From assembly GCA_009930115.1 (NCBI GenBank), contig RZYY01000020.1, positions 1-32,316 of the forward strand: DNA of 32,316 bases, given 5' to 3'. Below, in pieces: positions 4,428 through 26,651 of the stretch. The position numbers and the translations under genes were made by a program. The DNA is from Sphingobacteriia bacterium (GTDB lineage: Bacteria > Bacteroidota > Bacteroidia > Bacteroidales > 4484-276). Numbering within the stretch: the stretch's first letter is position 1; every line of letters starts with the position of its first letter. The notes beneath the pieces were generated by a model that saw nothing but the letters and a program-made list of their open reading frames with translations, was not told the DNA's origin and ran no database searches.

Positions 4428-4438
4428 AAACACGAAAG

Positions 4439-4831
4439 ATGAAACGACTGCTGATGATGATTAAATACAGGCAATACCGATGGGCTGCAAGGCTTTTGGG
4501 TTTACTTGGTTTTGTTTTCTTTGTTTCCTATTTCACTGCCGACGGCCTTGCTGATATCAAAATACATCAACCATCATCAGATCTTACTTTAATTCTGATT
4601 TTCGTACTTCTCTGCTTTACAGGATATCTTTTGGGTTGGGTAATCGAAATCGCAGGTGGAATTCTGCTCACCATTTCCGCAATTCTTCTTTCCTTTTATT
4701 TGCATTATTTTGTAAACTTCTCAATCATCACCTCGATAATTTACTACGGACTGCCATTTTTCATCCCGGGAATATTGTTTATTACCGCATGGAGGATCAA
4801 AATTTTAAGAAAAAGCGAATTACCCTGTTAG
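4439..4831 (+). CDS. small integral membrane protein, function unknown
   Basis: This 130-residue protein has a basic N-terminus (MKRLLMMIKYRQYRW) followed by about four hydrophobic segments, near residues 17-35, 48-70, 72-92 and 100-120. It is therefore almost certainly an inner-membrane protein with both termini probably in the cytoplasm. No enzymatic motif or known family signature was recognised. The gene starts 11 bases after lon and has no visible promoter of its own, which suggests co-transcription. The hydrophobic pattern and codon use look like a real gene. A functional link to Lon is only suggested by position. Confidence 0.75.
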   Translation: MKRLLMMIKYRQYRWAARLLGLLGFVFFVSYFTADGLADIKIHQPSSDLTLILIFVLLCFTGYLLGWVIEIAGGILLTISAILLSFYLHYFVNFSIITSIIYYGLPFFIPGILFITAWRIKILRKSELPC

Positions 4832-4884
4832 CGATTTAGCCTTTCAATCGGATCGCGTCCACCATAAATGTTCAATTTCGGAAC

Positions 4885-8462: not shown

Positions 8463-9317
8463 ATGGGACTTAGAAATTTTTTAATCAGCCGGACTTTTCT
8501 CAAACACCTCTCAATAGCAGTGGCAGGAATAATTGTTTTAGTTTGGGTTGCAATCAAAAGCCTGGCAATCTACACCAATCATGGAGAAGAAATAGAAGTA
8601 CCTGATTTAATTGGTTTACATTACCTGGAACTTAAACATTTTGATTCTGATCACAACTTCAGATTTCTTGTAACAGACTCTATTTTTAATGACAGTTTTC
8701 AGAAAGGTTCTATAGTTCTTCAAGATCCTCCGGCTGGTTCGAAAGTTAAGATCGGACGAAAAATTTACCTTACAGTTGTTACCTCGCAACCGGAAACGGT
8801 ATTGATGCCAAATCTGGTTGATCTCTCCCTGCGTCAGGCCATTGTTAACCTGAAAGCTTCCAATTTGAAGGTCGAAAAACTCAGTTATACCGAAAATATG
8901 GCTGTAAATGCTGTACTTTCCCAAAAATTTAAAGGCGAAATCATCGAACCGCGAACCGAAATCCTCAAAAATTCCTCCATCGAACTTGTAGTAGGCAAAG
9001 GGCTCCGGGAAGCAAAAAATTCTGTTCCCAATCTCATTGGCAAAACCGAAGAACAGGCCATTGAACTTGTTCTCCAGTCGGGTTTTAACAAAGGATATTT
9101 AACATTCCCCGGCACTCGCGACACTGGAAAATACAGGGTTTATAAACAGCAGCCTTCATGGAATTATGAAAAAGCAGCTGAATTTGGATCACACATTGAC
9201 CTGTGGTTTCGATCAGATCTTCAGTTCAATTTCGATTCGCTGCTCCAAACCCTGACCGCTGATACACTGAAAATTCAACAAGAGTCAACAGAACCGCAAT
9301 TATTACCAGAACAATGA
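8463..9317 (+). CDS. PASTA-domain membrane protein
   Basis: The 284-residue protein has a short basic N-terminus, one hydrophobic helix at about residues 16-38, and three extracytoplasmic PASTA repeats. The repeats begin near residue 46 (EVPDLIGL), 113 (LMPNLVDLS) and 187 (SVPNLIGKTEEQA). PASTA modules bind peptidoglycan or beta-lactam-like ligands in Gram-positive kinases and penicillin-binding proteins. Here no kinase or transpeptidase domain is attached, so the protein is a membrane-anchored PASTA protein of the kind common in Bacteroidota. ATG 8463 is preferred to an upstream in-frame TTG at 8433, since the TM helix then has a normal N-terminal flank. The stop overlaps the start of the next gene by 4 bases (ATGA), suggesting translational coupling. 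An rluD-type gene follows next, a neighbourhood I recall from other Bacteroidota. Confidence 0.88.
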   Translation: MGLRNFLISRTFLKHLSIAVAGIIVLVWVAIKSLAIYTNHGEEIEVPDLIGLHYLELKHFDSDHNFRFLVTDSIFNDSFQKGSIVLQDPPAGSKVKIGRKIYLTVVTSQPETVLMPNLVDLSLRQAIVNLKASNLKVEKLSYTENMAVNAVLSQKFKGEIIEPRTEILKNSSIELVVGKGLREAKNSVPNLIGKTEEQAIELVLQSGFNKGYLTFPGTRDTGKYRVYKQQPSWNYEKAAEFGSHIDLWFRSDLQFNFDSLLQTLTADTLKIQQESTEPQLLPEQ

Positions 9318-11473
9318 AAAAGTATTTCCTGCTTCTTATCCTGATAATTTTGAGTTTTGCTACCACCGTTGGACAGGAAATTCTTACTGGTTTGTCCGAA
9401 AATCCGGCCATAAAGCAAAGCAACCAAAGACCGGTATCTTTTAAATCCTCAGTATATCAATCACCTGCTCCGGTTCTTCTTCCTTTTTTTGACAATTTCA
9501 AGCAAAAGAGCATATACCCTGATACCTCTCTTTGGATGGACAATAATGTGTTCATCAACAATGATTTTGCAGAATTTCCCCCTACCTGGAACGTAGCTAC
9601 CTTTGATGCTATCAATGCCAGCGGGGACATTTATCCGGATGCTAATTTTCTTCAGTTTCAGGCCGATTTTCTCACGTCAAAACCTATCCGTCTCGACTCT
9701 GTTTTTTCACCACAACCTGCAGCCTTATCGCCCGCTGATTCAATCTACCTGAGTTTTTATTACCAGCCACAGGGACGCGGAAACGATCCACAATTACAGG
9801 ACTCACTGGTGCTGGAATTTGGTCAATATACCGGCCAGTGGATTTTTACCCGTGTGGATTCTATAACCGTATCAGCCGGCATTTACGGTGCAGATACTTT
9901 ATTTCCGGGAGATATCCTGATTTCGCCCTGCGACGAAACTTGGGAATACACCGTTACCGACACACTTTACCCTGACAGTTTTGTAACACTTCCCTGTGAT
10001 TCTGTTTTTACACCGGAAAGCAACTGGAAACGGATATGGGCAACCAAAGGAATGCCTCTGGATACTTTCCTGGTAAAAAACAACGATTTCTACTTCAAGC
10101 AGGTAATGATTCCAATAACAGATACTACTTTTTTCAAAAATGATTTTCAATTCCGCTTTTTTAACTTCGCCAGTATTTCGAACGATAACCTGCAAAGCTG
10201 GCAAAGCAACTGCGATCATTGGAACATTGACTACGTGTATCTGAACAAAGGCCGAACAAGAGCTGATTCCACACATGAAGCCATCTCATTTGCCGGCAAT
10301 GCACCTTCTTTCCTAGTGAATTACCAAAGCATGCCATTTTATCAGTATAAAAAGGGCAATCCTTTTGAACTGATGAGGCTTGGGCTTGAAATGTATATCA
10401 GTAATCTTGACAATAGTAACCAAACCGCTCATTATTACTATGAAGTGAGAGATGATCTGGGTAACCTTGTCTTTAGCTGGGACGGAGGCAGTGGTGACCT
10501 GCAACCTTTCAACCAATCGGGATACACTACTATTTCCTCCTTTGCATTTCCTCCGGTAAACGGCACATTCCCACCATTCGGCAACCGTGACAGCATTCAT
10601 TTCGACATCACCCATTACCTCGAAGGAGACCTTCAGTTGGGACTCACCGATACATTGCGTTTCAGACAAAACTTCCACAACTATTTTGCCTATGATGATG
10701 GTACGCCGGAATTCGGCTACGGGCTTACACCTGCCGGCGCAAAACTTGCCTATCGTTTTGATCTGATCGAACGCGACACACTCAGAGCCTTACAGATGTA
10801 CTTTAACAAAACACTGACCGGTGCCAACGATCAATTTTTTGATCTTGTAGTCTGGAAAGACCTGAACGGAAGGCCAAACGACACAACCCCTGATGGTGTT
10901 CTTTATTATCAGGAAAGATTAAAACCGGTTTTTACCAACAATTTGAATGAGTTTGCAACCTATTTTCTCAACGAACCGGTACCTGTGCAGGGAACATTTT
11001 ATGTAGGCTGGATACAACGCACAGGCCACAATCTTAATCTGGGCTTCGATGCAGGCAATGATGCCAGTAGTTTTATTTATTATAAAGTTACAAATAACTG
11101 GGCAAAAACAAGTTTCAAAGGTGCTTTGATGATAAGACCTCTACTGGGCGAATCTCTTGCCAATGCACCTCAACCAGAAATTTTATCAGCAAAGTTTCTG
11201 ATTGCTCCGAATCCAACAAAAAATGGCATTGTCAACCTTAAATACAATGCCTATGGAAATGAAAATTCTCCGCATTGGTTCATTGAACCCGATGAAGAAA
11301 CCACCCGAAATTTGCTCATCGAAGTATTCAGCATAATGGGACAAAAAGTTTTTGAAGGAGATTACGCTCAACAGATAGACCTCTCCCATCTTAATAATGG
11401 TATCTACATCGTTTGTATAACAAATATCAGCAACCGATCGTCAAATATTCAAAAACTGATAATCAGAAAGTAA
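9314..11473 (+). CDS. secreted T9SS cargo protein, function unknown
   Basis: The 719-residue protein has a signal peptide (residues 1 to about 20, MKKYFLLLILIILSFATTVG). A long beta-rich body carries many Asp/Asn/Tyr residues and at least two Cys pairs near residues 198-230. The C-terminal domain (about 626-719) is typical of T9SS sorting: it starts LIAPNPTKNG, contains a VFSIMGQKVFEG segment, and ends with LNNGIYIVCI and KLIIRK. It should therefore cross the outer membrane by type IX secretion and be surface-attached or released. No catalytic motif was recognised in the body. It is translationally coupled to the PASTA gene by a 4-base overlap, so both are probably made together at the envelope. 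Confidence 0.85.
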   Translation: MKKYFLLLILIILSFATTVGQEILTGLSENPAIKQSNQRPVSFKSSVYQSPAPVLLPFFDNFKQKSIYPDTSLWMDNNVFINNDFAEFPPTWNVATFDAINASGDIYPDANFLQFQADFLTSKPIRLDSVFSPQPAALSPADSIYLSFYYQPQGRGNDPQLQDSLVLEFGQYTGQWIFTRVDSITVSAGIYGADTLFPGDILISPCDETWEYTVTDTLYPDSFVTLPCDSVFTPESNWKRIWATKGMPLDTFLVKNNDFYFKQVMIPITDTTFFKNDFQFRFFNFASISNDNLQSWQSNCDHWNIDYVYLNKGRTRADSTHEAISFAGNAPSFLVNYQSMPFYQYKKGNPFELMRLGLEMYISNLDNSNQTAHYYYEVRDDLGNLVFSWDGGSGDLQPFNQSGYTTISSFAFPPVNGTFPPFGNRDSIHFDITHYLEGDLQLGLTDTLRFRQNFHNYFAYDDGTPEFGYGLTPAGAKLAYRFDLIERDTLRALQMYFNKTLTGANDQFFDLVVWKDLNGRPNDTTPDGVLYYQERLKPVFTNNLNEFATYFLNEPVPVQGTFYVGWIQRTGHNLNLGFDAGNDASSFIYYKVTNNWAKTSFKGALMIRPLLGESLANAPQPEILSAKFLIAPNPTKNGIVNLKYNAYGNENSPHWFIEPDEETTRNLLIEVFSIMGQKVFEGDYAQQIDLSHLNNGIYIVCITNISNRSSNIQKLIIRK

Positions 11474-12704: not shown

Positions 12705-13979
12705 TCAAATACCTTTCATTTTCGTCCACAGCTTTCGTCCCATTTCTTTCGAAAATAAAAGTATATCATTTTCATTGGCCAGCGTTAACTGACGATCTTT
12801 TACCACCAGCTTACCGCCAGAAATGACATGTTTGACGTGTGTCGCATCCATTCCGTAAATAAAATGACCACAATAGTTATTGCTGTTTATTTCAGTTGGA
12901 GTATTGTAGTCCAAAACAACAAAATTATTCTCACTATCGCCTGAAAACCGGTTATAGCTGAGATAATGATGCACGTTGCGAAGCCGGTGATAAATAGTGT
13001 CTGGTAACTGCGGATCATTCTGTAAACCTGCAAAATAAGCCCACTGTGCACTACGGATCATATTGCTGTGCATGCCATCAGTACCGAGCATAATCCGGTT
13101 TCCCGTATTCTTCGATTGAAAAATTCCTACCCGGTTATTCAAATTGCTTTCCATATTTTCGACTATCCAGGCGCGACCATCTGACAACCTTTTCGTTTCT
13201 CTATCGTCGAGATGAAGACAATGCACAAAAATACTTTTTGGCATTTGTAAAAACCCAAAACCATCAAGACGATCAATAACAGACATTTGATAATTTGATT
13301 GACAATGTTCTTCATCAAATTGATCCTCAGCAACATGAATATGCACCCCTGATTGAAATTTTTCAGCAAGCAGCGCCGCTTCCTTCATGGTTTGGTCGCT
13401 TACAGTGAATGATGCATGCAATCCAACCAATCCCTGATGATGTTTCAGATATTCTGATGTCAGCTTAAGACCTTCAGCCGCTCTTTCTTTCCCGTCCCGG
13501 TCCGACACTTCATAGCAGAGCAGGTGAGACACACCTACCTTTTCGAAGGCGGTTGCAATTACAGGCAACGAATTTTCGATAGCATAAGGTGAAGCGTGAT
13601 GGTCAATTATAAAAGTTACCCCGGCCTTCAGGCTCATCATGGCAGCATACAAAGCACTGGCCTCTATAATTTCGCTGTCAAGACTTTTATCCAGCTTCCA
13701 CCAGACATACTTCAGTTTTTCATAAAAATTTTTGGGTGGAATATCCGGAGGAGGCATACCCCTTGATAGCGCAGAATAAATGTGATGATGAGCATTGGCA
13801 AAAGATTTTGTAACGAAGAGTCCGCTACAATCAAGCACTTCATGATTTTCAAACTCGTTTGGAATATCATCCGGAAATTCCAGATAAGAACTTGTTCCTA
13901 AGCCGGTAAGAATATTTGTTTGCTTGAACTTTAGTGTTTGCCAGTCAATAAAAGTAGCGTTTTTAAGTAAAACTGACAT
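12705..13979 (-). CDS. ssnA: SsnA-type aminohydrolase
   Basis: This is a metal-dependent amidohydrolase of the SsnA family, related to guanine and atrazine deaminases. The family accompanies selenium-dependent molybdenum hydroxylases and purine/urate degradation. The 424-residue protein has HxH metal ligands His64/His66 in NAHHHIYSALSRGMP, IDHHASPYAI at about 125-134, His213/His215 in HIHVAED, His253 in VHCLHL and Asp301 in GTDGMHSNM. All match E. coli SsnA (442 residues). The segment before VVLDYNTPTE is shorter than in E. coli and lacks the usual glycine-rich turn. It is the last gene of the ygfK operon, 63 bases after xdh, a longer gap than the others. Its likely substrate is an amino- or imino-purine or a ring-opened product. 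The exact reaction is not known to me. Confidence 0.9.
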   Translation of the reverse strand: MSVLLKNATFIDWQTLKFKQTNILTGLGTSSYLEFPDDIPNEFENHEVLDCSGLFVTKSFANAHHHIYSALSRGMPPPDIPPKNFYEKLKYVWWKLDKSLDSEIIEASALYAAMMSLKAGVTFIIDHHASPYAIENSLPVIATAFEKVGVSHLLCYEVSDRDGKERAAEGLKLTSEYLKHHQGLVGLHASFTVSDQTMKEAALLAEKFQSGVHIHVAEDQFDEEHCQSNYQMSVIDRLDGFGFLQMPKSIFVHCLHLDDRETKRLSDGRAWIVENMESNLNNRVGIFQSKNTGNRIMLGTDGMHSNMIRSAQWAYFAGLQNDPQLPDTIYHRLRNVHHYLSYNRFSGDSENNFVVLDYNTPTEINSNNYCGHFIYGMDATHVKHVISGGKLVVKDRQLTLANENDILLFSKEMGRKLWTKMKGI

Positions 13980-14042
13980 CAGATATTGAATTAGAAATGA
14001 TTACCTCAATTGCGAATTTTAATTAAAATCCGTGGAAGACAT

Positions 14043-16583
14043 TTAATCTCTCAGCATGGGCAGCTTGTAGCGCCGTATTTTGTCAAACAGATAAAATGCA
14101 TTGGCAACAGCGGCAGCAGTTGGCACCAGGCCAATTTCGCCAATACCTTTGGCACCATAAGGCCCTACAGGATCAGAAACTTCCACCACACGAACCTCTA
14201 CTTCAGGCATTTCATCAGAGCGGAGTATGCGGCAATCCCGTAGTTTTTCCGAAACAAGCTGACCATCTTTCATGGGCAGGTCTTCGGTAAGTGCATAACC
14301 CAGTCCCATATGCACTGCTCCTTCAATCTGACCTTCAAAAAGCTGACGGTTTAAAAGCTTACCTACATCGTGAGCGGCAATTACTTTTTTTATTTTTCCG
14401 GAATCATTCAGAATAACCATTTGAGTTGCATAACCATATGCAAAATGAGTGATCTGATGGTTATTATTATCAGAAGGTTGAGTCGTCCAGTCGCAGATAA
14501 ATTTCCCATAATAAACATTACCAGCCAGCTGCTCAGGGGTTTTGTGTTTGAGGTCTGATCTTACGGAGGCACAGGCATCGATAATGGCATTTCCCATGAG
14601 TGCGGTAGCTCTGGAAGAGGTCGTCATCCCGGTAACGAGCCGGTCTGCAGTATCCACTACAACTTCAATATTCTCCGGAGATAAACCTGTTTCCCTGCAA
14701 AAAATGTTGATGGCCATAGTGTGCACTCCCTGACCCATTTCAGACCATCCATGCGAAATAGTGATTTTCCCGCTATGATGAAAATGTATTTTCACATAGC
14801 TTTCATCGGTCATTCCATTGCCAACACCCGTATTTTTTATACCACAGGCAAGTCCGGCATATTTTTCATTATAAAAATCTGCTTTGACAGCCATCAAAGT
14901 CTGCTTCACACCTACTCCTTTATCCAGTTTTTGTCCGGTTGCTGTTGACAATCCTACATCAAGTGCATTATCGTACCTGAACTGCCAGCGGTCAAAACCA
15001 CCCTTTTCACAGAGTTCATCAACCAGCGACTCAATGGCAAATGTCACCTGATTTACTCCAAATCCGCGCATTGCACCACATGGGATATTGTTGGTATAAA
15101 CAGTTTTGGAAATCAGATCAACATTCGGAACGAAGTAAGCTCCGGAAGCATGGCCGGCAATTCGTTCCATCACTTTAGTACCCACCGATGCATAAGCACC
15201 TGTATCACCTGTGGCATTTAATTTCAGGGCGGTTAACTTTCCTTTTGCATCACATGCAAGTTTCATCTCCATATATACCGGATGGCGTTTCGGATGCATA
15301 CGAATAGATTCTTCGCGTGAAAGGGTTAATTTGACAGGTTTTTGGAGTAACCATGCAAATAAGCAGCAATGTCCCTGAACCGTCATATCTTCTTTACCAC
15401 CAAAAGCTCCGCCTGTCTGTACCTGTTGTATTCTTATCCTGTCTTCAGGAATACTGAGTAAGGTTGCAATTTGCTGCCGGTCAACATATACACCCTGCCC
15501 CTGACTGAACAGTTTTATTCCATCTCCCTCAGGTTCGGCCAGCGCGGATTCAGGTTCTAAAAAACCATGCTCAATTCGCTGTGTTGTAAAATTACCTTCC
15601 GCAATAAAAGCTGCCTGGCTAAATTCATTATCCGGGTTCCCATGACGAACAATGCATTGTTCTAACAAATTGGGCTGTCCTTCATGTACAAGCGGACTGT
15701 CGTGATGAAGAGCCTTAAAAGGATCAGTAACCGGAGGTAAAATTTCGTATTCGATTTCGATCAGGGTTGCAGCTTTTCTGGCAGTTTTTCTGTCCAGAGC
15801 TACAATACCTGCCAGCACATCGCCAATATAATGGGTGATTTCATTCACCCCTATCATCAATGGCCAGTCCTTCTGAATCAGCCCTGTTTTATGATCACCG
15901 GGAATGTCATCAGCAGTAAAAATTTTAATTACCCCGGGCACTTTTTCAGCTTTTGAAGAGTCAATTTTTACAACTCTGGCACGGGGATGTTCACTAAAAC
16001 GAAGTGCTGCGTGGAGTAATCCTTCTTTGTTCATATCATTCACAAACGGAAGTCTGCCACAGGCTGTCTGAAGTGCTTTATACCGGGGCGAATAACCTGT
16101 ATCGTCAATTTCAGAAATTTCACCTGTCCGCAGATTAAAAAGTGCCAGTTCAACCGCATCAATTATTTTTACATAACCGGTGCAACGGCAAAGGTTCTGT
16201 CGCAATGCTGCAGCTATTTCAGCTCGGGTAGGATTTGGATTTTCCTGAAACAAAATCTTTGTCCGCATTATAAAGCCGGGAGTACAAAAACCGCATTGAA
16301 CTGCACCCTTTTTGACAAAAGCACTGGCAATAACCGTTAAAACCGAGAGTGGAATACCTTCAAGGGTCAAAATGCTGGTTCCGTCAAGTTTTCCAAGTTT
16401 TGTTACACACGAAAGCCGCGGTTTCCCGTCAATTTCCACCATGCAGGCACCGCAAACAGCCTGACCTGAACAACCATCTTTTACCGAAATAATGCCTTGT
16501 TCATCTCTGAGATAATCGAGCAGCGTAACCGATGGATCGCCGTCATAACAGATGCTTTTCCCATTTAAGGTGAAAGTAATCAT
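14043..16583 (-). CDS. fused [2Fe-2S]/molybdopterin hydroxylase, selenium-dependent xanthine dehydrogenase type
   Basis: This molybdenum hydroxylase is predicted to oxidise xanthine, hypoxanthine or a related purine. The 846 residues equal the usual length of the fused selenium-dependent Xdh family. Residues 1-75 form a plant-type [2Fe-2S] domain with Cys38, Cys44, Cys47 and Cys59. The first spacing is C-x5-C rather than the common C-x4-C. Residues 80-150 form the second [2Fe-2S] domain with Cys97, Cys100, Cys132 and Cys134. From about 165 on lies the molybdopterin domain, with GGAFGGKEDM, GAMRGFGVNQ, EMGQGVHT and the catalytic Glu816 in GAKGIGEIG. There is no FAD domain and no separate FAD subunit gene nearby, so electrons probably pass to YgfK. 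There is no in-frame UGA; in this family selenium is a labile cofactor, not selenocysteine. It sits 15 bases after the threonine-synthase-like gene. Confidence 0.92.
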   Translation of the reverse strand: MITFTLNGKSICYDGDPSVTLLDYLRDEQGIISVKDGCSGQAVCGACMVEIDGKPRLSCVTKLGKLDGTSILTLEGIPLSVLTVIASAFVKKGAVQCGFCTPGFIMRTKILFQENPNPTRAEIAAALRQNLCRCTGYVKIIDAVELALFNLRTGEISEIDDTGYSPRYKALQTACGRLPFVNDMNKEGLLHAALRFSEHPRARVVKIDSSKAEKVPGVIKIFTADDIPGDHKTGLIQKDWPLMIGVNEITHYIGDVLAGIVALDRKTARKAATLIEIEYEILPPVTDPFKALHHDSPLVHEGQPNLLEQCIVRHGNPDNEFSQAAFIAEGNFTTQRIEHGFLEPESALAEPEGDGIKLFSQGQGVYVDRQQIATLLSIPEDRIRIQQVQTGGAFGGKEDMTVQGHCCLFAWLLQKPVKLTLSREESIRMHPKRHPVYMEMKLACDAKGKLTALKLNATGDTGAYASVGTKVMERIAGHASGAYFVPNVDLISKTVYTNNIPCGAMRGFGVNQVTFAIESLVDELCEKGGFDRWQFRYDNALDVGLSTATGQKLDKGVGVKQTLMAVKADFYNEKYAGLACGIKNTGVGNGMTDESYVKIHFHHSGKITISHGWSEMGQGVHTMAINIFCRETGLSPENIEVVVDTADRLVTGMTTSSRATALMGNAIIDACASVRSDLKHKTPEQLAGNVYYGKFICDWTTQPSDNNNHQITHFAYGYATQMVILNDSGKIKKVIAAHDVGKLLNRQLFEGQIEGAVHMGLGYALTEDLPMKDGQLVSEKLRDCRILRSDEMPEVEVRVVEVSDPVGPYGAKGIGEIGLVPTAAAVANAFYLFDKIRRYKLPMLRD

Positions 16584-16598
16584 TATTAATTTTCAATA

Positions 16599-17846
16599 TT
16601 ACAAATCAAGATACCTGAGGAGCTTGTCAAGATCGTTTGGGATCGGTTTCGGCAGTGACAGATAGTTTTTTATGGCAGCCATGTCCTTCATGCCTGAACC
16701 TGTAATCATCACCAGATTCACTGATTTTTCTTCGATTTTATTCATTCTGTGCATTTTAAGAAATCCGGCAAGTGCAGCAGCAGCCGAAGGCTCGGCAAAA
16801 ATTCCCGTATTCCGTCCAAGCTGGAGTGAAGCCTGAATAATTTCATCATCACTTACTTTAATCGCTTTTCCGTGATAGGATTTCATGTATTTGGCAGTCA
16901 TGTGAAAATTGCGTGGAACATCCACCGAAATGCTATCGGCGATCGTTTTGGATTTTACTGATTTAAAGACTTCCCTGTCAAGATTATCCACCAGATTGGG
17001 GCTGCCTTCAGCCTGCACGGCGACAATAGTCGGCATGCTCTTCGTAAGATGAAGCTTCATCAGTTCTTCAAATCCTTTATAAATTGCCGAAATAATCACA
17101 CCGTCACCGACAGGGATAAAAATGTTGTCGGGAATTTCACCAAGAAGATCGTCATAGATTTCAAAAGCAGCAATTTTTTTTCCTTCGATGGTAAAAGGAT
17201 TGTAAGCGGTATTACGATTATAAATGCCGGTTTTTTTTGTCAGTTCAACACTCAGGTCAAAAGCATCATCATACGTACCTTTTACAGGTATCAGCGTAGC
17301 GCCGTACATTGCAATCTGAGTCAGTTTTTCAAATGGAGCATTTTCAGGGACAATTACGATGGCTTTCTGACCCTGAGCCGCACAAATCCCCGCCATGGAT
17401 GAACCGGCATTCCCGGTGGAAGCTGTAACAATTGTATCTATTCCTTTTTGTTGTGCAAAAGCTGAAACAATCACTGAAGCCCTGTCTTTTAAAGAAAGTG
17501 TAGGATTTCGCGCATCATTTTTTATATACAGCGCTGCACTTAATGGTTTCCCCTCAAAAGTATCCACCTCATACATCGGGGTATGACCGATCCGTAATCC
17601 GGGAATCGTATCCGATTGTTCAATAGGGAGCAAATCAAGATAGCTGTCGTCTTTAATCACCGAAAACAGACTATCACCGGAAATATCATCGCTAATCATA
17701 TCATAATCGTAAATAACCTTCAGCACACCCCTGAGCGGTTCTCCGGGTTTATTTTTTCTTTCGCAGTCGGGACACAGGTAAATAATTTCATCGGTTACAA
17801 TCTCTTTTTCACATGTTACACACTGATAACGAAATTTTTGGTTCAT
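16599..17846 (-). CDS. threonine-synthase-like PLP enzyme with zinc ribbon
   Basis: This is a fold-type II pyridoxal-phosphate enzyme. The 415-residue protein starts with a zinc-ribbon-like motif, Cys9/Cys12 and Cys25/Cys28, found at the front of some threonine synthases. The PLP lysine is Lys120 in NPTLSLKDRAS. It is followed by TASTGNAGSSMA near residue 141 (substrate/phosphate loop) and by MITGSGMKD near the C-terminus. By sequence it would be called threonine synthase. Here, however, it lies in the middle of a purine-degradation operon, 17 bases from the preceding PLP gene and 15 bases from xdh. A role in beta-elimination or replacement on an amino acid released from purine breakdown, such as 2,3-diaminopropionate, is therefore possible. 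That is inference. It could also be the cell's ordinary ThrC, which would be odd in this operon. Confidence 0.8.
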   Translation of the reverse strand: MNQKFRYQCVTCEKEIVTDEIIYLCPDCERKNKPGEPLRGVLKVIYDYDMISDDISGDSLFSVIKDDSYLDLLPIEQSDTIPGLRIGHTPMYEVDTFEGKPLSAALYIKNDARNPTLSLKDRASVIVSAFAQQKGIDTIVTASTGNAGSSMAGICAAQGQKAIVIVPENAPFEKLTQIAMYGATLIPVKGTYDDAFDLSVELTKKTGIYNRNTAYNPFTIEGKKIAAFEIYDDLLGEIPDNIFIPVGDGVIISAIYKGFEELMKLHLTKSMPTIVAVQAEGSPNLVDNLDREVFKSVKSKTIADSISVDVPRNFHMTAKYMKSYHGKAIKVSDDEIIQASLQLGRNTGIFAEPSAAAALAGFLKMHRMNKIEEKSVNLVMITGSGMKDMAAIKNYLSLPKPIPNDLDKLLRYLDL

Positions 17847-17863
17847 TATACTCTATTTTAAGG

Positions 17864-19336
17864 TTATAAGTATTCTTTAATGACTCCTGTACGCTCGTTG
17901 AACTCCATAATTTTTTCATCCCATTCATCAGCTTTTTCCCATGACTGTTTCCAGTAATTATCATCATACCACTGGGCATTCAGTTCTTCAACAGTTTTAC
18001 CCTGTTGTTCGATCCAGGTAAAATACTTCAGATTATGAATACGCCTTTTGCTGTAGTAATCCAGTTCAGTCATGTGATCAATTTTCAGATTTTGCAAACA
18101 TGCGTAAAAATCAATTGCTGCCTGTCCTGATGAATATTCCCCCTGTTTGTTTTGTTCTTCTGTGATCCTCGTTTTGTACATTTCCATAGAATCGGTTGCC
18201 ACCGTAAAAATAATATCTTTTTCATTCATTTCGTAATATTTTGCCATTTTTATAGTGCCCATCAGATTAGCAATGGATGAAATGCCAAGCAGGTGCAGAT
18301 TTTCGACCAATGCAGGATCAATGCCTGCTTCAGTTTTCAGGAAATTCTTTCCTTCCGGTTCGTTGAACAAACGCATAATATTTATATTCGGATCGTCATC
18401 AATGGCTGCAATCATATCCAGATTTTTAATATTAAAAATCCAGGGAATGTGTTTGTCGCCTATACCTTCAATGCGATGACCACCGTATCCGTTTAACAGC
18501 ATTGTGGGGCATTGAAGAGCCTCTCCGGCACAGATTTTAATAGCGGGAAATACTTCTCTGAGATAATCACCCGAGCCGAGTGTCCCAGCCGAACCCTGCG
18601 TGAGAAACAAAGCGCTTAATCTGGAATCGCCAGTTTTAATCTTGTCAAACACTTCCTGCATTGCCGGTCCTGTAACCGCATAATGCCACAATGAATTCCC
18701 GATTTCACTGAACTGATTCAGGGTAACGATTTCATCACCACGCTCAGCCTCAAGTACTTTTACTTTGTCATAGATTTCCTTGACATTACTCTCGCATCCA
18801 GGAGTAGCAAATACCTCCGCCCCCACTTTGTGCAACCAGTCAAAACGCTCCTGCGACATCAACTCTGGCAGCACAGCTATAGAGTTGCAACCAAGTAAAT
18901 AAGAATCGTAAGCACCTCCCCTGCAATAATTTCCGGTGGATGGCCACAAAGCTTTCTGACGGGTAGGATCGAACCGTCCGGTAATGAGTTTCTCAACCAG
19001 AGGACCAAAAGTTGCTCCAACCTTATGCGCACCGGTAGGAAAATATTTTCCTATCAGCATGATGATTCGGGCTTTAACGCCTGTGAGCTCATGCGGCAAT
19101 TCTATAAAATTCACTTCTCCAAAACCCCCACCAAATTCCTTGGGTTCATTTTTCCAGGTAATCCTGAACAAGTTCAGTGTATTCAAATCCCACAATCCAA
19201 GTCCGGAAAGTTTTTCTTTTATCTTTTCCGGAATCAGCTCAGGATTGCGCATTTGCTTGTATGTTGGGATAATAATGTGTCTTTCGCGACATCTTTCTAT
19301 TGTATTTTCCAGCACTTTCTCTCTTTCTTTGTTCAT
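17864..19336 (-). CDS. 490-residue PLP-dependent enzyme, fold type II, function unknown
   Basis: The protein has the tryptophan-synthase-beta/cysteine-synthase fold. Lys105 in FPTGAHKVGATFG is the likely Schiff-base lysine, with a TrpB-like TGAHK motif. STGN at 133-136 is the substrate-carboxylate loop of cysteine synthases and threonine dehydratases. GSAGT at 248-252 is the PLP-phosphate loop. It lacks the TrpB catalytic-glutamate segment, and at 490 residues it is about 100 longer than most family members, with an aromatic, charged C-terminal tail. It is the second gene of the operon, only 4 bases after ygfK, so tight coupling is expected. I do not recognise a characterised homologue. A lyase or ammonia-lyase acting on a beta-substituted amino acid fits the fold and the context, and it could replace YgeX. 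That is a hypothesis. Confidence 0.75.
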   Translation of the reverse strand: MNKEREKVLENTIERCRERHIIIPTYKQMRNPELIPEKIKEKLSGLGLWDLNTLNLFRITWKNEPKEFGGGFGEVNFIELPHELTGVKARIIMLIGKYFPTGAHKVGATFGPLVEKLITGRFDPTRQKALWPSTGNYCRGGAYDSYLLGCNSIAVLPELMSQERFDWLHKVGAEVFATPGCESNVKEIYDKVKVLEAERGDEIVTLNQFSEIGNSLWHYAVTGPAMQEVFDKIKTGDSRLSALFLTQGSAGTLGSGDYLREVFPAIKICAGEALQCPTMLLNGYGGHRIEGIGDKHIPWIFNIKNLDMIAAIDDDPNINIMRLFNEPEGKNFLKTEAGIDPALVENLHLLGISSIANLMGTIKMAKYYEMNEKDIIFTVATDSMEMYKTRITEEQNKQGEYSSGQAAIDFYACLQNLKIDHMTELDYYSKRRIHNLKYFTWIEQQGKTVEELNAQWYDDNYWKQSWEKADEWDEKIMEFNERTGVIKEYL

Positions 19337-19340
19337 CTCG

Positions 19341-22300
19341 CTAAATCAAATTTGTTACTGCTTTATATATCATTTGCATTTCTGTAATTTCCGGCAACTC
19401 AATGACCCCTTCGTTACCGTCAAAAATGTCAATATGCTCAATCTCAAAAGACTTTTTATCCAGAACAGCCATACAATCATCATTTTCGAAGATCATGGCA
19501 TCCCAGTTTTCCGACATTACTGACAGAGCGCCATTTCTCTTCATGGTGAGTTGTTTGAAATCCCCGTCCCTGGTGAGTAAGAACCCGGAAGTCTCATTTT
19601 TAAATTCATCTTTCGAAAAATAAAGTCTTAGTTTATCTTTATAAGGCTTTCCGGCCGTTGGACAGAAGGTAGTACAGTTTCCGCATTCATTGCACCAGTC
19701 AGCAATATTCAGCACCTGATAAGGCTGATGAATGTCAAGTTTTTTGTCGCTGATTACTGTAAACGTCTCTTCTTTGTACTTTACTGTAGGGTAATAAAGA
19801 TTATCAGGATCTATTTCAAATGGTAAAAATGCATGATTCGGGCACACACTGACGCAAACATTGCAAATCACATCACACTGAAGGCACCTGGAAGCCTCAT
19901 AATTAGTCTGAAGCCTTGTAAGTGTAGGGATTACCAAATCAAAGTTCTTACGCTCATCGCCAGGGAGTAATTTTTGTCTGGGGGCTAATTCACGTTTTGT
20001 CTTTTTTATTTTCAACGTGGTAAGTTCTTCAGGTGTCAGGATTTTCCTGGCTGGTTCTGGCGGGACAATATTTTCACGCTGCATAATTTCAAGTGCAACA
20101 TTCCTGCCGTCACCTATAGCTTTAATAGCCGTTGCAGCTCCACGCATGGCATCTCCGCCTATATATACATTATCTATCAGAGTTTGATACGATTTTTCAC
20201 GGGTTTTGAGCAGCTCTTTGTCCACAAAATCAATGCTCAACTCCTGTCCTATAGCAGGAATAATGGTATCGAATTCATAGGAATGTTCTGAATCCGTCAC
20301 TGCTACAGGTAAAGCTCTTCCCGAAACATCCGGTTCACCCAGTTCCATATCTATACATTCAATACCGATAACTTTTCCGTTTTCCTCCAGAAAACGCAAA
20401 GGTGCAACCAGCTCAATAATATCTATACCTTCATCCTTAACTGCTTTTATTTCACCCTTGTCGGCAGGCATTTCGTTTATTGTTCTCCTGTAAAGAATAG
20501 TTACACTTCCATATTCACCAATCAGCCTTGCAGCAGTTCGGGCTGCATCCATTGCCGTATTGCCACCACCGATCACAGCAACCTGACTTCCTAAAGCGGT
20601 TTCCTGATTGTTTCTTACTTTTTTGAGAAATTCAATCGGATCAAGAATACCAGCAGCATCACAACCTTCGATGTTCAGCTTTTTGGAAGCCTGCGCACCG
20701 GTACTAATGAAAACGTAGTCGTATTGTTCGCGTAGCTTATCAAAGTTTGTTTTATCTACCGGTGAATTCCCAATGATATTTACACCACTTTTTTTAATAC
20801 GCTCAATATCTTTTGCAATATTAACATCAGTAAGCCGAAATGCCGGGATTGCAGCAGAAACCATTCCTCCCGGACGATCTTCCGTTTCATAAACATCGGT
20901 GTGAAAACCAGCAAGATTTAGAAACCATGCACAGGATAACCCTGAAGGTCCGGCACCAATTATAGCTACTTTTTTCCCATTCCTTTCAGCTTTGGTATAT
21001 GCCGGGCTGCCATTTGCATTCTCAGCAACAAAGCGTTTCACTTCACGAATCATTACTGATTCATCATAGTTGATTCGGGTACATTTTGTCTGGCATAAAT
21101 GATCACATATAGTTCCGGTAACAGAGGGGAAAGGATTATCATGCAGGATATATTTAAATGAATTTTCCAGATCATCTTTAGCCGCAAACCACAAATAATC
21201 AGGAATATGTTGATGCGTGTGACACATTTCCATGCATGGTGCAGCAATACAGTCGTATGGTTTGAGCGGACGGTCAGTTTTTATATCCACATCCTGAAAC
21301 AAATCTTTTTGGTAGTCTTTGTTGTTGAGTGTATGGATTGCATAAGCTTTAAGGTGGTCAAGAGCAGCATTGACAACATTAAAATCACTGCTCGTTTTTA
21401 AAATATACTCAAAAGTATTTTTTGCCTGTAATTTTGCATAAGCTTTTGACAACTGTTCGAAATATTGCACCAACCTGGCATATCCGCCCGGTTTTAGAAG
21501 ATCAGAACATACAGTGATGGTCTTAAAACCACAGGTCATCAACTGTGATATATTGAAACAATTAACGCCTCCTGAAAATGACAAATTAAGTGCTCCTTCA
21601 AATTTTGTCTGGAGATTTGCGGCGAGATTCACTGCAATCGGATGAAGAGCGTTTCCGCTAAGGTAAATCTTCTCTTCGTTCCCGGGCAAACGTCCTTTAT
21701 TGTTATAACACTCCAGGGTATTGGAAATCTTGAAACCAAGCTCCAGTTTCATCTCATCAGCAGTTTTCTGCAGGTTTTGTATCAAATTGAGGGCATCCGC
21801 ATATTGCAAGTCATTTTCGAACGAAGAATCCGGAATTTTTATATTGAAGCCACGTTCCTGATTCAAAATTGCCCTGACCGATCTTGATCCCAACAACGTT
21901 GGATTGAACTTTACGGTAGTGTGCAGCTTTTTGTCTACCATTAGATATTTTACAATATATTCGATTTCGCGCGGAGGGCAACCATGCATGGTTGAGAGTG
22001 TTACGCTGTTGGATATCTCTGTGGGAATATGAAGATTTTTAACCTCAGGATAAATATGTTTAATTTCATTTATTTTTGCTTCCAGTTCAACGCTACAATT
22101 CTTCATTTTATCAATGAACCACTGCACTTTCGGGCTTCTTACCTGATCCAGGTTATATCCGATACTCATATTGAAAACTGTTCCTGGTTCCACATCCTTA
22201 CGAAGTTTTGAAAAAAGCCGGTGATGTAAAATATGTATCAGAATCCATGCATTCAGATACTGATCGTAGGATTGCTCAATTTTAAGCTCCTGTGACCATT

Positions 22301-22628
22301 CGCAGTTGTATCCCTCATATTGCATATCAATACAAGGTTTGGTAACGACAATTTCATCATTTTCCTGCACTGTTTTCAACTCAATGAACCTTGCCCCGCA
22401 TAACCAGCCCGTTACAATATTCTGGGCAAGCTGTGTGTGAGGGCCTGCGGCCAGCCCGATCGGGTTATGCAGCATTTTACCGCCTGCCTTTGTGTATAGA
22501 AAATGATACTGCCAGGGTTTATAGAACAACCGCTCGGGAATGTCAAAAATTTCCGATTTGTGCCGGAGATCGTTAAGGATAATCTTAAGCAATTGCTCCA
22601 ATGCAGGAGGATTTAATTTATCAGACAT
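19341..22628 (-). CDS. ygfK: YgfK-type flavin/iron-sulfur oxidoreductase
   Basis: YgfK is a soluble redox protein long labelled putative selenate reductase subunit and now tied to anaerobic purine/urate degradation. The 1095-residue protein (E. coli, about 1030) matches strongly along its length. The N-terminal half looks like dihydroorotate dehydrogenase, with LAAGPHTQLAQNIVTGWL, GARFIELKTVQ and TMHGCPPREIE. A GltD-like module follows: Cys pairs CIAAPCMEMC and CDHLCQTKC, FAD-binding GAGPSG at 558 and NAD(P)-binding GGGNTAMDA at 687. Two C-terminal ferredoxin-like clusters start at Cys915 (CLQCDVICNVC) and Cys979 (CNECGNCTTFCP). It is the first gene of the operon, with a -7 box 27 bases upstream of ATG 22628. 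An in-frame TTG at 22658 overlaps that box and is rejected. It is the probable electron partner of the FAD-less Xdh. Confidence 0.96.
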   Translation of the reverse strand: MSDKLNPPALEQLLKIILNDLRHKSEIFDIPERLFYKPWQYHFLYTKAGGKMLHNPIGLAAGPHTQLAQNIVTGWLCGARFIELKTVQENDEIVVTKPCIDMQYEGYNCEWSQELKIEQSYDQYLNAWILIHILHHRLFSKLRKDVEPGTVFNMSIGYNLDQVRSPKVQWFIDKMKNCSVELEAKINEIKHIYPEVKNLHIPTEISNSVTLSTMHGCPPREIEYIVKYLMVDKKLHTTVKFNPTLLGSRSVRAILNQERGFNIKIPDSSFENDLQYADALNLIQNLQKTADEMKLELGFKISNTLECYNNKGRLPGNEEKIYLSGNALHPIAVNLAANLQTKFEGALNLSFSGGVNCFNISQLMTCGFKTITVCSDLLKPGGYARLVQYFEQLSKAYAKLQAKNTFEYILKTSSDFNVVNAALDHLKAYAIHTLNNKDYQKDLFQDVDIKTDRPLKPYDCIAAPCMEMCHTHQHIPDYLWFAAKDDLENSFKYILHDNPFPSVTGTICDHLCQTKCTRINYDESVMIREVKRFVAENANGSPAYTKAERNGKKVAIIGAGPSGLSCAWFLNLAGFHTDVYETEDRPGGMVSAAIPAFRLTDVNIAKDIERIKKSGVNIIGNSPVDKTNFDKLREQYDYVFISTGAQASKKLNIEGCDAAGILDPIEFLKKVRNNQETALGSQVAVIGGGNTAMDAARTAARLIGEYGSVTILYRRTINEMPADKGEIKAVKDEGIDIIELVAPLRFLEENGKVIGIECIDMELGEPDVSGRALPVAVTDSEHSYEFDTIIPAIGQELSIDFVDKELLKTREKSYQTLIDNVYIGGDAMRGAATAIKAIGDGRNVALEIMQRENIVPPEPARKILTPEELTTLKIKKTKRELAPRQKLLPGDERKNFDLVIPTLTRLQTNYEASRCLQCDVICNVCVSVCPNHAFLPFEIDPDNLYYPTVKYKEETFTVISDKKLDIHQPYQVLNIADWCNECGNCTTFCPTAGKPYKDKLRLYFSKDEFKNETSGFLLTRDGDFKQLTMKRNGALSVMSENWDAMIFENDDCMAVLDKKSFEIEHIDIFDGNEGVIELPEITEMQMIYKAVTNLI

Positions 22629-23050: not shown

Positions 23051-23066
23051 CAAAAAATTGAAAAGT

Positions 23067-24230
23067 ATGATTTCTGCCCGCCTTTCCGCTTTTAAAAATG
23101 CTCCTGAAAAGATATTTTCAGAGGGATACACAAAACTCACCAGGTATTTCAGTGAGTTCGGGTTCGATCTGAAAGCCTCTGATCCACATCTTTTCTTTAT
23201 TCTCAGCGGTGGATCAGAACTTTTTGCCATTGAACAAATGAGTGAAGGAAACTTTTACCTCCTTCTTGCTTCAGGCGAAAACAATTCATGGGCTGCTGCC
23301 ACTGAGATAAAAGCCTGGATGGATGAACACCGCATAGATGGCATGCTGTTCGATCTGGAAAATTACAACGACCTGGCAAAGATTAAAAACATATTCACCC
23401 TGATCGAAGCTCTTGCCGGATTGCAGGGAAAGAGCATTGGGCTGATAGGTGAACCATCTGAATGGCTGGTTGCATCAGATGTTGACATAAAAGCACTGAA
23501 AGCCAGATTCGGTTTGTCTATTCAAAAAGTACAGTGGACAGATATACCGGATTACAAAATATTCGAACCCGATTTAAGGTTCACTGCCAAATATCCGTTT
23601 CATAACAAACAATCGGTCAGTGATGCATCAAAAGTAAAACAGGCTTTGCAATTCATTATTCACAGAAATAAATTTGATGCCATCACCGTGGAATGTTTTT
23701 CATTGGTTCAGGAGAAAGGCGTAACGGCATGTCTTGCATTATCCGATTTCAACGACCAGGGAACCGCAGCCGGTTGCGAAGGTGATCTGACCAGCATTAG
23801 CGGAATGATGTTTCTCGAGGCTGTTACAGGTATCATTCCCTGGATGGCCAATCTGGTGAAAATCAGTAATGATCGTGTCCGGTTTGCTCATTGTACTGCT
23901 CCGGTCAGCCTTCTGGAGCAGTATAAAGTGGACACACACTTTGAAACCGGAAAAGGAACTGCCGTTGCAGGTAAGTTTTCAGGTGAGATCATTACAGTAT
24001 TCAGATGGAACCGCTTACTTACAAGAGCTTTCGTTGCTAAAGGAAAAATTACTGAAAAAATACAAAGTCCAGATCAGGCATGCCGGACAATGATTGAAGC
24101 CTGTCTTGATTCCGAAAAAACTTCACACCTCAAAAATAACCCGCTTGGAAATCACCATCTTATTCTGCCCGGCGACCATACCGAACAAATACAACTGGCC
24201 TGCAGACTAAAAGGAGTTTTAGCAGAATAA
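23067..24230 (+). CDS. fucose/arabinose-isomerase-like protein
   Basis: The 387-residue protein looks like the short L-fucose isomerase-like family. The C-terminal part holds the features expected of metal-binding isomerases: Glu209 in AITVECFSLVQ, the CEGDLTS motif at 237-243 (Cys237, Glu238, Asp240) and His275 in RFAHCTAP. The N-terminal half is an alpha/beta sugar-binding-like region with FILSGGSE near residue 47. Such proteins convert aldoses to ketoses. Many family members of this length have no tested substrate, so the reaction is not assigned. It is divergent from ygfK and 55 bases upstream of the ThiF-like gene, with which it probably forms an operon. A link to purine breakdown, for example ribose release from nucleosides, is only a guess from position. 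Confidence 0.7.
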   Translation: MISARLSAFKNAPEKIFSEGYTKLTRYFSEFGFDLKASDPHLFFILSGGSELFAIEQMSEGNFYLLLASGENNSWAAATEIKAWMDEHRIDGMLFDLENYNDLAKIKNIFTLIEALAGLQGKSIGLIGEPSEWLVASDVDIKALKARFGLSIQKVQWTDIPDYKIFEPDLRFTAKYPFHNKQSVSDASKVKQALQFIIHRNKFDAITVECFSLVQEKGVTACLALSDFNDQGTAAGCEGDLTSISGMMFLEAVTGIIPWMANLVKISNDRVRFAHCTAPVSLLEQYKVDTHFETGKGTAVAGKFSGEIITVFRWNRLLTRAFVAKGKITEKIQSPDQACRTMIEACLDSEKTSHLKNNPLGNHHLILPGDHTEQIQLACRLKGVLAE

Positions 24231-24285
24231 TTTTTTGAAAAAAATAACAGTTTGTTCAAAACCTAAAAAAGCATAAATACAACTG

Positions 24286-24963
24286 ATGAACAGGTATATA
24301 AAAAATCAAAACATGCTGACATCTGAAGAAAATCATCACTTGCAATCTTTCAGGGTAGCAGTCGCAGGTTGCGGCGGTCTGGGAGGATATATTATCGAAA
24401 TGCTTGCCAGACTTGGAATTGGTCACATCACGGCAATAGATGGGGATGTTTTTGATACATCCAACCTCAATCGTCAGTTATTATCACATCCGGGTAATCT
24501 CGGGAAATCAAAAGCTGTTGAAGCAAAACACAGGGTAGAAATCATTAATCCCGATATTTCACTGAAAGCAGTCAGCATTTTGCTGACAGAAGAAAATGCA
24601 GCGGATATCCTCGCAGGGCACCATGTGATCTGCGATGCACTTGACAGTATTAAATCAAAGCTTATTCTTCAGTACACTGCCGAAGGCCTGAAGATTCCAC
24701 TGGTTCATGCAGCTATCGCAGGGTGGTATGCACAGGTGTGCACCATCATGCCCGGTGATCGCACGCTGGAAAGAATTTATGAAGGAAACCCTGAACAAGG
24801 CGAAGAAAACGATCCTGGAAACCCATCTTTCACTCCGGCATTGGCAGCAGCGCTGGAGGTAGCCGAAGTTCTTAAAATCTTACTCGCCAAAGAGGGTATC
24901 CTGCGACACAAGTTATTAACCATTGATACACTTAAGCAGGATTTTAACATTCTGGAAATATGA
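24286..24963 (+). CDS. MoeB/ThiF/HesA-family E1-like adenylyltransferase
   Basis: This family adenylates the C-terminal glycine of a small sulfur-carrier protein (MoaD or ThiS). The 225-residue protein carries the nucleotide-binding motif GCGGLGG at 28-34, Asp52/Asp54 in AIDGDVFD, NRQLL at 62-66 and CDALDSIKSK near 120. All are core E1 residues. The CxxC zinc pairs of E. coli MoeB and ThiF are absent, and the protein is short, so it is a minimal member. The neighbouring molybdenum hydroxylase needs molybdopterin, which makes a MoeB-like role in sulfur transfer attractive, but a ThiF role cannot be excluded. No MoaD/ThiS partner is encoded next to it. It starts 55 bases after the isomerase-like gene and converges with the next gene, with stops 18 bases apart. 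Confidence 0.82.
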   Translation: MNRYIKNQNMLTSEENHHLQSFRVAVAGCGGLGGYIIEMLARLGIGHITAIDGDVFDTSNLNRQLLSHPGNLGKSKAVEAKHRVEIINPDISLKAVSILLTEENAADILAGHHVICDALDSIKSKLILQYTAEGLKIPLVHAAIAGWYAQVCTIMPGDRTLERIYEGNPEQGEENDPGNPSFTPALAAALEVAEVLKILLAKEGILRHKLLTIDTLKQDFNILEI

Positions 24964-24981
24964 TCCAAAAAGGATCGCAGC

Positions 24982-25884
24982 TCACTCTCGCTCCGGAAAA
25001 AGTCCTTTTTCCGGGAGGTGATAATCAGAATGTTTTGTTTTTGGCGCTCTTGCATCAATGTCCTGATGCAGATACCAGAATCCTCGTGTAAAAATCAACG
25101 CATCAAAACGGTCGTAAGAGGGTATCGCAGATTTATAAAATCTGCCAGTCGGAAAATCATTCCCCTGTAAATGATTAAACACAATCATCCATTCACGCTT
25201 ATTGCGTTTACCGGGAAGTAACTGTTTTTCGTAAGCCAGGTGAAACGGGACTTCGGCAGTGAATTCAAAAACCAACCTGTGTTGTAATTCATTGTCGCTC
25301 ATAACAAAAACCGGTTTCCCAAACTTCGGCTTCTGATCTTCGTCAAACCATAGTGTTTCTGCAATTCTTCGGGCTTTCCCATTCTCCACATGCAACCTTC
25401 CAAGCAGAGTATAAAACTGTCCGCTTTTATCTTTATTCTCAATAAGTTCGTAATAAACTGCACCTGGCCATTCCTGGACTCCATAGGTTCGGTTGAGTTC
25501 AGGTTTTCCGGCAAATGCTTTAAGTTCAATTACTTTAAAAGCATTATTTTCAGTTTCGATTTGCAAAAAACCATCATAAAAAGCCTTCTCATCAATACAG
25601 GGTATGGCCCATGTTATCATTCGAAAGCTCAAATCATCGGGAGCTACAGCTTTTAAGAATTTCAGCGAGTCAAAAGGGAAGGTGATCGGGTTGACAGATG
25701 TCAGAAAAACGGCAAGCTCGTGATGAATTAATTCATTTATCCGGAGCCTGACCGAATCATGTCTGTTTGAGTACATTAACTGAGCCAGAGAATCCATTCT
25801 TGCAATAAAAACTGAATCTGAATTTGCAGGTAAAGACTTAGAAAACAGAAGAGCAATCAAAAGGAAAAACAGTACTTGTCGCAT
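24982..25884 (-). CDS. exported protein of unknown function
   Basis: The 300-residue protein starts with a signal peptide (MRQVLFFLLIALLFSKSLPA, cleavage near residue 20). The mature part is a mixed alpha/beta protein. It has recognisable but unnamed stretches such as LQIETENNAFKVIELKAF and GRLHVENGKARRIAETLWFDE, and an aromatic C-terminal part (FTRGFWYLHQDID). No T9SS sorting domain and no lipobox are present, so it is probably periplasmic. I know no function. It resembles uncharacterised Bacteroidota proteins in style. It lies 71 bases after trmD on the same strand and may be its operon partner. The last codons contain the hairpin at 24993-25014. Confidence 0.8.
   Translation of the reverse strand: MRQVLFFLLIALLFSKSLPANSDSVFIARMDSLAQLMYSNRHDSVRLRINELIHHELAVFLTSVNPITFPFDSLKFLKAVAPDDLSFRMITWAIPCIDEKAFYDGFLQIETENNAFKVIELKAFAGKPELNRTYGVQEWPGAVYYELIENKDKSGQFYTLLGRLHVENGKARRIAETLWFDEDQKPKFGKPVFVMSDNELQHRLVFEFTAEVPFHLAYEKQLLPGKRNKREWMIVFNHLQGNDFPTGRFYKSAIPSYDRFDALIFTRGFWYLHQDIDARAPKTKHSDYHLPEKGLFPERE
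24993..25014. terminator. perfect 10-bp hairpin in the convergent gene junction
   Basis: CCGGAAAAAG and CTTTTTCCGG form a perfect 10-bp stem around a 2-base centre. It lies just past the stop of the ThiF-like gene and inside the last codons of the opposing hypothetical gene. A smaller GATCC/GGATC hairpin (24962-24976) overlaps the ThiF-like stop. It may end transcription or protect the mRNA end for the plus-strand gene. No free T-run follows, and a 2-base loop would force the inner pairs open. Confidence 0.35.
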
Positions 25885-25955
25885 GTTTTTTGAATTGTTG
25901 AATGAGGAACGATGACCAGTTACAAATATTTCAGATCAGGGATTTGCAGGCAGAT

Positions 25956-26651
25956 TTACAATAAGGGATTGTCGTTTTCCTGAAGCATTTCCGGACGTCG
26001 TTGCCGGGTGCGTTCAATAGCTTTTTCCATCAGCCACTCATTGATTTTTTTCTCATCTCCCGAAAGCAATATTTCCGGTACTTTCCAGCCGTTGTAGTCA
26101 GCCGGACGGGTATAGACAGGCGGACTGAGCAACCCGTCCTGAAAAGAATCAGAAAGTGCAGAAGTTTCGTCGCCAAGCACACCCGGAATGAGCCTTACAA
26201 CGCTGTCGGTAATCAAAGCAGCTGCCAGTTCTCCCCCCGATAGGACATAATCGCCGATGGAAACCTCCATGGTAATGTAATGTTCCCGGATACGTTCATC
26301 AATACCTTTGTAATGGCCGCAAAGCAGAATGATGTTTTGTAGTGTTGAAAGACGATTTGCAGCAGGTTGTCCGAAAATTTCACCATCAGGTGATAAATAG
26401 ATCACCTCGTCATAACTGCGTTCCTTCCTGAGTTTTTCAATGAGGTCAGCAATCGGCTGTATCATCATCACCATGCCTGCACCATGGCCAAAAGCGTAAT
26501 CGTCCACCCGGCGATGCTTGTTGGCAGCATAATCGCGGATGTTGTGCAGGTGAATTTCAACCAATCCTTTATCCACAGCACGTTTCAGGATAGAATAGCT
26601 GAAAATCCCTTCGAACATTTCAGGGAATATCGTTAAAATGTCAATCCTCAT
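25956..26651 (-). CDS. trmD: tRNA (guanine-N1-)-methyltransferase TrmD
   Basis: TrmD methylates G37 next to the anticodon using S-adenosylmethionine, preventing +1 frameshifting. The 231-residue protein starts [15 protein letters not shown] and has all TrmD hallmarks: the NIRDYA segment, [15 protein letters not shown] near residue 48, [13 protein letters not shown] near 110, [14 protein letters not shown] in the SAM-binding knot and [16 protein letters not shown] with catalytic aspartates. In many bacteria trmD sits with rpsP, rimM and rplS. None of these is next to it here, so the gene stands apart from the ribosomal cluster. Its upstream region (26652-26827) is occupied by a tandem repeat and a G-run array rather than a recognisable promoter. 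Confidence 0.98.

Follow-up and report, generated by a model that had tools for sequence, protein, structure and literature searches.

The operon described here belongs to a known pathway, the reductive degradation of urate through yanthine, in a variant that is new at its last step, and it is accompanied by a nameless enzyme of wide distribution. We consider it fairly probable that this is a Bacteroidota form of the pathway, in which a threonine synthase-like enzyme, here called P3, is the last-step enzyme in the place of YgeX, and in which a cysteine synthase-like enzyme, P4, acts on the same amino-acid pool. The original prediction, made from the DNA alone, had proposed a pathway version not yet described; this holds for the altered last step but not for the pathway itself, which is known.

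The window is the whole stretch of 32,316 nucleotides, contig C249 of a 3.78-Mb assembly (G000) in 541 contigs, which is 97.6% complete with an estimated contamination of 8.9%; by kinship it belongs to an order of Bacteroidota (Bacteroidales-type MAGs). The genes of interest in the window are:

19341-22628, minus strand: ygfK, a predicted NAD(P)H-dependent Fe-S flavoenzyme, yanthine (2,8-dioxopurine) reductase; TIGR03315, 893.8 bits (cut-off 835.3)
17864-19336, minus strand: P4, a 490-residue CysK-like fold-type II PLP enzyme; PF00291
16599-17846, minus strand: P3, a 415-residue ThrC-like PLP enzyme with zinc-ribbon-like cysteines at the N-terminus; PF00291
14043-16583, minus strand: fused XDH, a [2Fe-2S]/molybdopterin hydroxylase without an FAD domain; TIGR03311, 875.8 bits (cut-off 830.5)
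12705-13979, minus strand: ssnA, an amidohydrolase with a predicted role in opening the reduced purine ring; its top matches are both SsnA models, both under cut-off
6935-8326, plus strand: hyuA, a D-hydantoinase/dihydropyrimidinase-type amidohydrolase; TIGR02033, 517 bits (cut-off 393)

The first five genes form the minus-strand operon ygfK-P4-P3-xdh-ssnA, with recomputed intergenic gaps of 4, 17, 15 and 63 bases. Thus, the tight operon of YgfK, fused XDH and SsnA with HyuA nearby, as originally proposed, was confirmed by family scores (with SsnA under its cut-offs) and gaps, and its membership in the YgfK/SsnA/XDH urate pathway is supported. YgfK is 35% identical to E. coli YgfK across 1051 columns and starts at the ATG at 22628, an in-frame TTG further upstream at 22658 being less likely. 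SsnA reaches 300 bits against TIGR03314 (cut-off 455.5) and 351 bits against NF005540 (cut-off 444) and is 29% identical to the E. coli protein; it retains the metal-ligand motifs HxH, HIHxAED and LGTDG, and its operon position is conserved among relatives. HyuA, which is 37% identical to E. coli HyuA, lies 4.4 kb from the operon on the opposite strand. In the sister genome G001 (L118), a hyuA orthologue (70% identity) is found inside the same operon, downstream of ssnA, and HyuA is a probable pathway member that stands outside the operon in this genome. As the order ygfK-P4-P3-xdh-ssnA was found again in relatives, it is not due to chance.

Elsewhere in the window, the flank at 23058-26651 encodes a hypothetical protein of 390 residues, a ThiF/MoeB-like adenylyltransferase, a hypothetical protein of 300 residues and TrmD, in an order conserved in G001 (L118); a link of the ThiF-like gene with molybdopterin is possible. 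Large secreted-type proteins with C-termini resembling type IX secretion sorting signals, typical of Bacteroidota, are encoded at 9314-11473 and 29224-31755. An Rfam scan of the window gave no matches.

YgeX, YgeY and YgeW had been described as missing from the window. All three are indeed absent from it and YgeX was not found in the draft assembly, with no match at E 1e-25 in a search that was positive on the E. coli YgeX control. However, YgeY and YgeW are encoded on a second contig, C413, at 3010-4167 (494 bits; cut-off 321.5) and 4255-5415 (620 bits; cut-off 500), respectively. The two genes are adjacent, 42 bases apart, and are followed by a gene for a UshA-like 5'-nucleotidase. Given the contamination of 8.9%, a foreign origin of C413 is conceivable; against it stands the sister genome G001 (3% contamination), which carries this ygeY-ygeW pair too, at 79-81% identity. 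The pathway genes of this organism are split over at least two loci: ygfK-P4-P3-xdh-ssnA with the nearby hyuA, and ygeY-ygeW elsewhere. With both of these genes in the genome, the amino-acid end of the pathway differs in a single step and has not been rebuilt as a whole. Their occurrence elsewhere in the genome comes near to one of the two findings that the original prediction had named as refuting it. The UshA-like protein (C413:5503-7278; L005) has a 49% identical homologue downstream of P3 in G021 (L110:6229-7983), and this neighbour suggests a supply of nucleotides to the pathway.

The association of each enzyme with the pathway was assessed in 59 related genomes, this one included, of which 23 have ygfK and 36 lack it, a genome being counted as ygfK-bearing when its match to the family was full or near-full. 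P3 is present in 18 of the 23 ygfK-bearing genomes and in none of the 36 others (p = 5e-11), and P4 in 18 and one, respectively. The accepted members behave in the same way, with YgeW in 19/23 versus 0/36 and YgeY in 20/23 versus 0/36. In contrast, YgeX is not linked to ygfK (2/23 versus 1/36) and was unfound in 21 of the 23. Nor is SelD associated with ygfK (15/23 versus 18/36; p = 0.29). These counts make P3 as tied to the pathway as its accepted members, which YgeX and SelD are not. In a subset of 47 genomes, each standing for a different other family of the order, P3 occurs in 11 of 12 genomes with ygfK and in none of 35 without it (Fisher p 7e-10), and P4 in 11/12 versus 1/35. The Fisher tests on both sets take no account of phylogeny within the order. 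The conservation of the two PLP genes next to ygfK, which the original prediction had made a test of itself, was therefore borne out, both by the recurring gene order and by the distribution of P3.

The one P3-less genome among those 12, G037 (L105), has the order ygfK-P4-YgeX, with YgeX in the slot of P3; this YgeX is over the family cut-off and is 42% identical to E. coli YgeX. Within the family of the present genome, G004 has neither P3 nor P4, its YgeX being unlinked, while in G006, G008 and G011 ygfK is present and P3, P4 and YgeX are all absent from the available sequence. This family also contains a second, divergent YgfK paralogue of about 440-626 bits, under cut-off (G004:C36, G008:C396, G011:C898 and G002:C230).

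The selenium label originally attached to the operon is not supported: SelD is present in this genome (contig C337) but, as noted above, is not associated with ygfK, and 8 of the 12 ygfK-bearing genomes outside the family are without it. In this group, the pathway seems able to do without SelD. The fused XDH is a candidate urate/xanthine enzyme, with 28% identity to E. coli XdhA and 24% to XdhD. Comparison with Glu606 of E. coli XdhD permits no call between urate reduction and xanthine oxidation, as this residue falls in an insert that is absent from the XDH of the window.

P3 would ordinarily be annotated as a threonine synthase and P4 as a cysteine synthase. The former scores 191.6 bits against TIGR00260 thrC (cut-off 167.1), threonine synthase is the nearest fold to its predicted structure (pLDDT 91), and the threonine synthases PDB 6nmx, 2zsj and 1uim are the closest solved proteins in fold and sequence, at 30-36% identity. 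Together with the failure to find a second clear ThrC in three genomes (G000, G035 and G050), this would fit a threonine synthase, ordinary or moonlighting, whose place in the operon is a matter of chance, the YgeX homologue having been missed or being unneeded. This explanation is improbable, as several observations speak against it. The Asn, Ser and Arg of the ThrC motif NSVNPxR grip the phosphate of O-phosphohomoserine. All four bacterial ThrC sequences compared from the PDB carry NSVNP[YHV]R, whereas P3 has NTAYNPFT, and the Arg column is T, L or M in 41 of 41 members. The PLP phosphate loop of P3 is GDG where ThrC has GNAGN. In addition, G001, G003 and G043 have a separate ThrC besides P3, the copy in G043 adjoining a homoserine kinase, and a biosynthetic ThrC would not be expected to be absent from every relative without ygfK. 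A plain ThrC was rejected on account of the motif loss, the separate ThrC paralogues and the co-occurrence with ygfK, and a biosynthetic threonine synthase is thus an unlikely identity for P3.

Instead, P3 is a candidate non-orthologous diaminopropionate ammonia-lyase that would replace YgeX. This is its most economical role because of the slot exchange with YgeX, the neighbouring YgeY and carbamoyltransferase genes, and the absence of YgeX. The YgeX family models (TIGR01747/TIGR03528) are absent from the listed NCBIfam matches of P3, as they are from those of P4, and hhalign shows that P3 and P4 are not closely related to each other. A strict exclusivity between P3 and YgeX was rejected as imperfect: G128 and G182 have P3 in the cluster plus an unlinked YgeX, and P4-P3 stands beside ygeW-ygeY-ygeX in Diplocloster (L162).

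The same neighbourhood is found beyond the order. Twelve further ygfK loci were present in a sample of 296 Bacteroidota, and in eight of these a P3 homologue (39-44% identity) lies beside a carbamoyltransferase of roughly 330-355 residues (one copy is shortened), which is itself beside or near YgeY. In six, P4 is on the HyuA/SsnA side. Across GTDB species genomes, P4 homologues occur in at least 588 places; at 45 of the 75 loci examined, a further pathway homologue lies no more than six ORFs away, and P3 is the commonest gene after P4, in 20 loci. In Cloacimonadota (L137), the cluster reads HyuA-SsnA-YgfK-YgeY-YgeW-P4-P3-XDH, and full or nearly full clusters are also found in Fidelibacterota (L143) and Halanaerobiales (L160). 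The P3 sequences of all these phyla group together in a tree with modest support (87/72). Among 29 genomes with a P4 locus mostly lacking a clear cluster, SsnA of at least 340 bits is encoded elsewhere in 20; four P4 genomes are without any SsnA match.

Further P4 loci were observed outside these groups. In Bipolaricaulota (L163, L158 and L176), P4 is found with an SsnA-like protein, XDH, GntR, carbamate kinase and two carbamoyltransferases, with YgeY, P3 and YgeX not in view; this cluster is a possible further variant of the pathway. Asgard archaea (Hodarchaeota and Heimdallarchaeota; L172, L187 and L196) have P4 homologues of 59-60% identity. In Thermodesulfobacteriota (L191), P4 is accompanied by XDH subunits, an M20-like peptidase and a PreA/UacX-like reductase, so that P4 travels with a UacX-type reductase too. 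No P4 was found in viral contigs.

Conserved and widespread, the P4 family is linked to purine clusters in many phyla and has neither name nor function in the libraries searched. The P4 model (pLDDT 91) has CysK 8sru as the top PDB match (TM 0.83 of target), and its best NCBIfam matches are to cysteine synthase, at 91.8 bits against a cut-off of 344. It has the CysK fold with an extended N- and C-terminus; Lys105 and the STGN and QF motifs are conserved in 49 members, and identity to the window copy is 55-80% across phyla. OrtB (2-amino-4-oxopentanoate thiolase) was considered and rejected, as there was no such NCBIfam match.

Albizziin and 2,3-diaminopropionate (DAP) are formed by reactions of the pathway (PMC12507026). 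Because PLP enzymes need a free amino acid and these two are the only alpha-amino acids of the pathway, the substrate of P4 is probably one of them, and we lean towards a role in handling one stereoisomer. In G037 and L153, P4 is found next to a true YgeX, with P3 absent from both, and hence is not simply a substitute for YgeX. The proposal that the two PLP enzymes take over the amino-acid end was therefore right in identifying conserved partners but too simple in its division of labour.

The roles could also be reversed, with P4 and not P3 being the DAP/albizziin beta-lyase, acting via aminoacrylate in a CysK-type elimination, and with P3 catalyzing a side reaction. P4 does have the CysK fold and motifs for beta-elimination/replacement, and is more conserved than P3 and more widespread in the sample. 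Moreover, it is placed directly after YgeW in L148 and after YgeY and a carbamoyltransferase in L140, and the Bipolaricaulota order SsnA-XDH-P4-GntR-ArcC-CTase-CTase (L163 and L176) has no P3 or YgeX within the retrieved flank. Such a reversal is nevertheless unlikely, as P4 would be a redundant second DAP lyase beside the YgeX of G037 and L153, and in several Bacteroidota it is P3 that is found with YgeY and the carbamoyltransferase, P4 being with HyuA and SsnA.

A role outside the carbon pathway, in which the PLP enzymes would supply the molybdenum enzyme with its cofactor or with sulfur or selenium, is very improbable. It would account for the CysK-like P4 beside XDH in many loci, and for G051, where P4 occurs with XDH, XdhC and 8-oxoguanine deaminase and without ygfK. 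Sulfuration of the molybdenum cofactor is, however, normally carried out by NifS-type fold I enzymes; P3 and P4 repeatedly adjoin carbamoyltransferase, carbamate kinase and YgeY; and SelD does not follow ygfK.

A bolder version of the preferred reading makes P3 and P4 together a two-enzyme amino-acid end of undescribed chemistry. Here, the CysK-fold enzyme would act on D-albizziin/D-DAP, by racemization or direct elimination, followed by the ThrC-fold DAP lyase, and the pair would stand in many phyla in place of a dual-specificity YgeX. This is a tentative idea, more doubtful than the replacement of YgeX by P3; if true, it would settle which stereochemistry the pathway follows.

Gene content and order, co-occurrence, the predicted folds and the loss of the ThrC motif in P3 have been shown here. 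Under the preferred reading, with P3 as the last-step enzyme, we infer every reaction in this organism, and the substrates of P3 and P4, using the pathway of E. coli and C. difficile (PMC12507026) as the model. XDH would reduce urate to yanthine, the ring of which would be reduced and then opened by YgfK and SsnA. HyuA would open the hydantoin to yield 2,3-diureidopropionate, which YgeW and YgeY would strip of its two ureido groups, leaving DAP. The beta-elimination of DAP to pyruvate and ammonia would then most likely be the work of P3, while P4 would probably act on DAP or albizziin, perhaps handling one of the stereoisomers or racemizing them.

These assignments bear on how urate degraders are recognized, for which ygeX, ygeY, ygeW, ygfK and ssnA serve as marker genes (PMC12990295). 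Because most of the ygfK-bearing relatives studied here are without YgeX, surveys based on that gene would miss them. The phyla listed for SsnA in PMC12507026 do not include Bacteroidota. A review of the pathway (PMC12990295) names as open both the stereochemistry of its ureido intermediates and the sequence in which they are cleaved, and P3 and P4 are concrete enzymes with which both could be tested. A literature search that did not reach the first reports, from 2023, of the gut urate cluster gave nothing on P3 or P4 in purine degradation, and an earlier mention of these genes is possible.

Among known enzymes, YgeX (PDB 4d9g) shares with P3 the fold-type II PLP superfamily (hhalign probability 98.9%). 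P3 differs from it in having only about 24% identity over a short stretch, and in its PLP loop, with GDG and ASTGNAGSS versus the TDGNHG of YgeX. P4 is nearest in fold to cysteine synthase and cystathionine beta-synthase (PDB 8sru and 6c2h), with which it has in common the PLP lysine, STGN, QF and the MSxER loop; unlike these, it is about 180 residues longer and is 22-26% identical to them. The characterized cluster of E. coli and C. difficile comprises xdhD-ygfM, ygfK or uacX, ssnA, hyuA, ygeW/yqeA or uacY, ygeY and ygeX (PMC12507026). Like it, the present system has YgfK, SsnA, HyuA and a molybdenum enzyme of the XDH type in a single operon or close to it, and YgeY and YgeW in the genome. 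Unlike it, YgeX was not found here, P3 and P4 stand between ygfK and xdh, the operon has no FAD subunit for the XDH (a trait shared with C. difficile), and the genes are divided between two loci.
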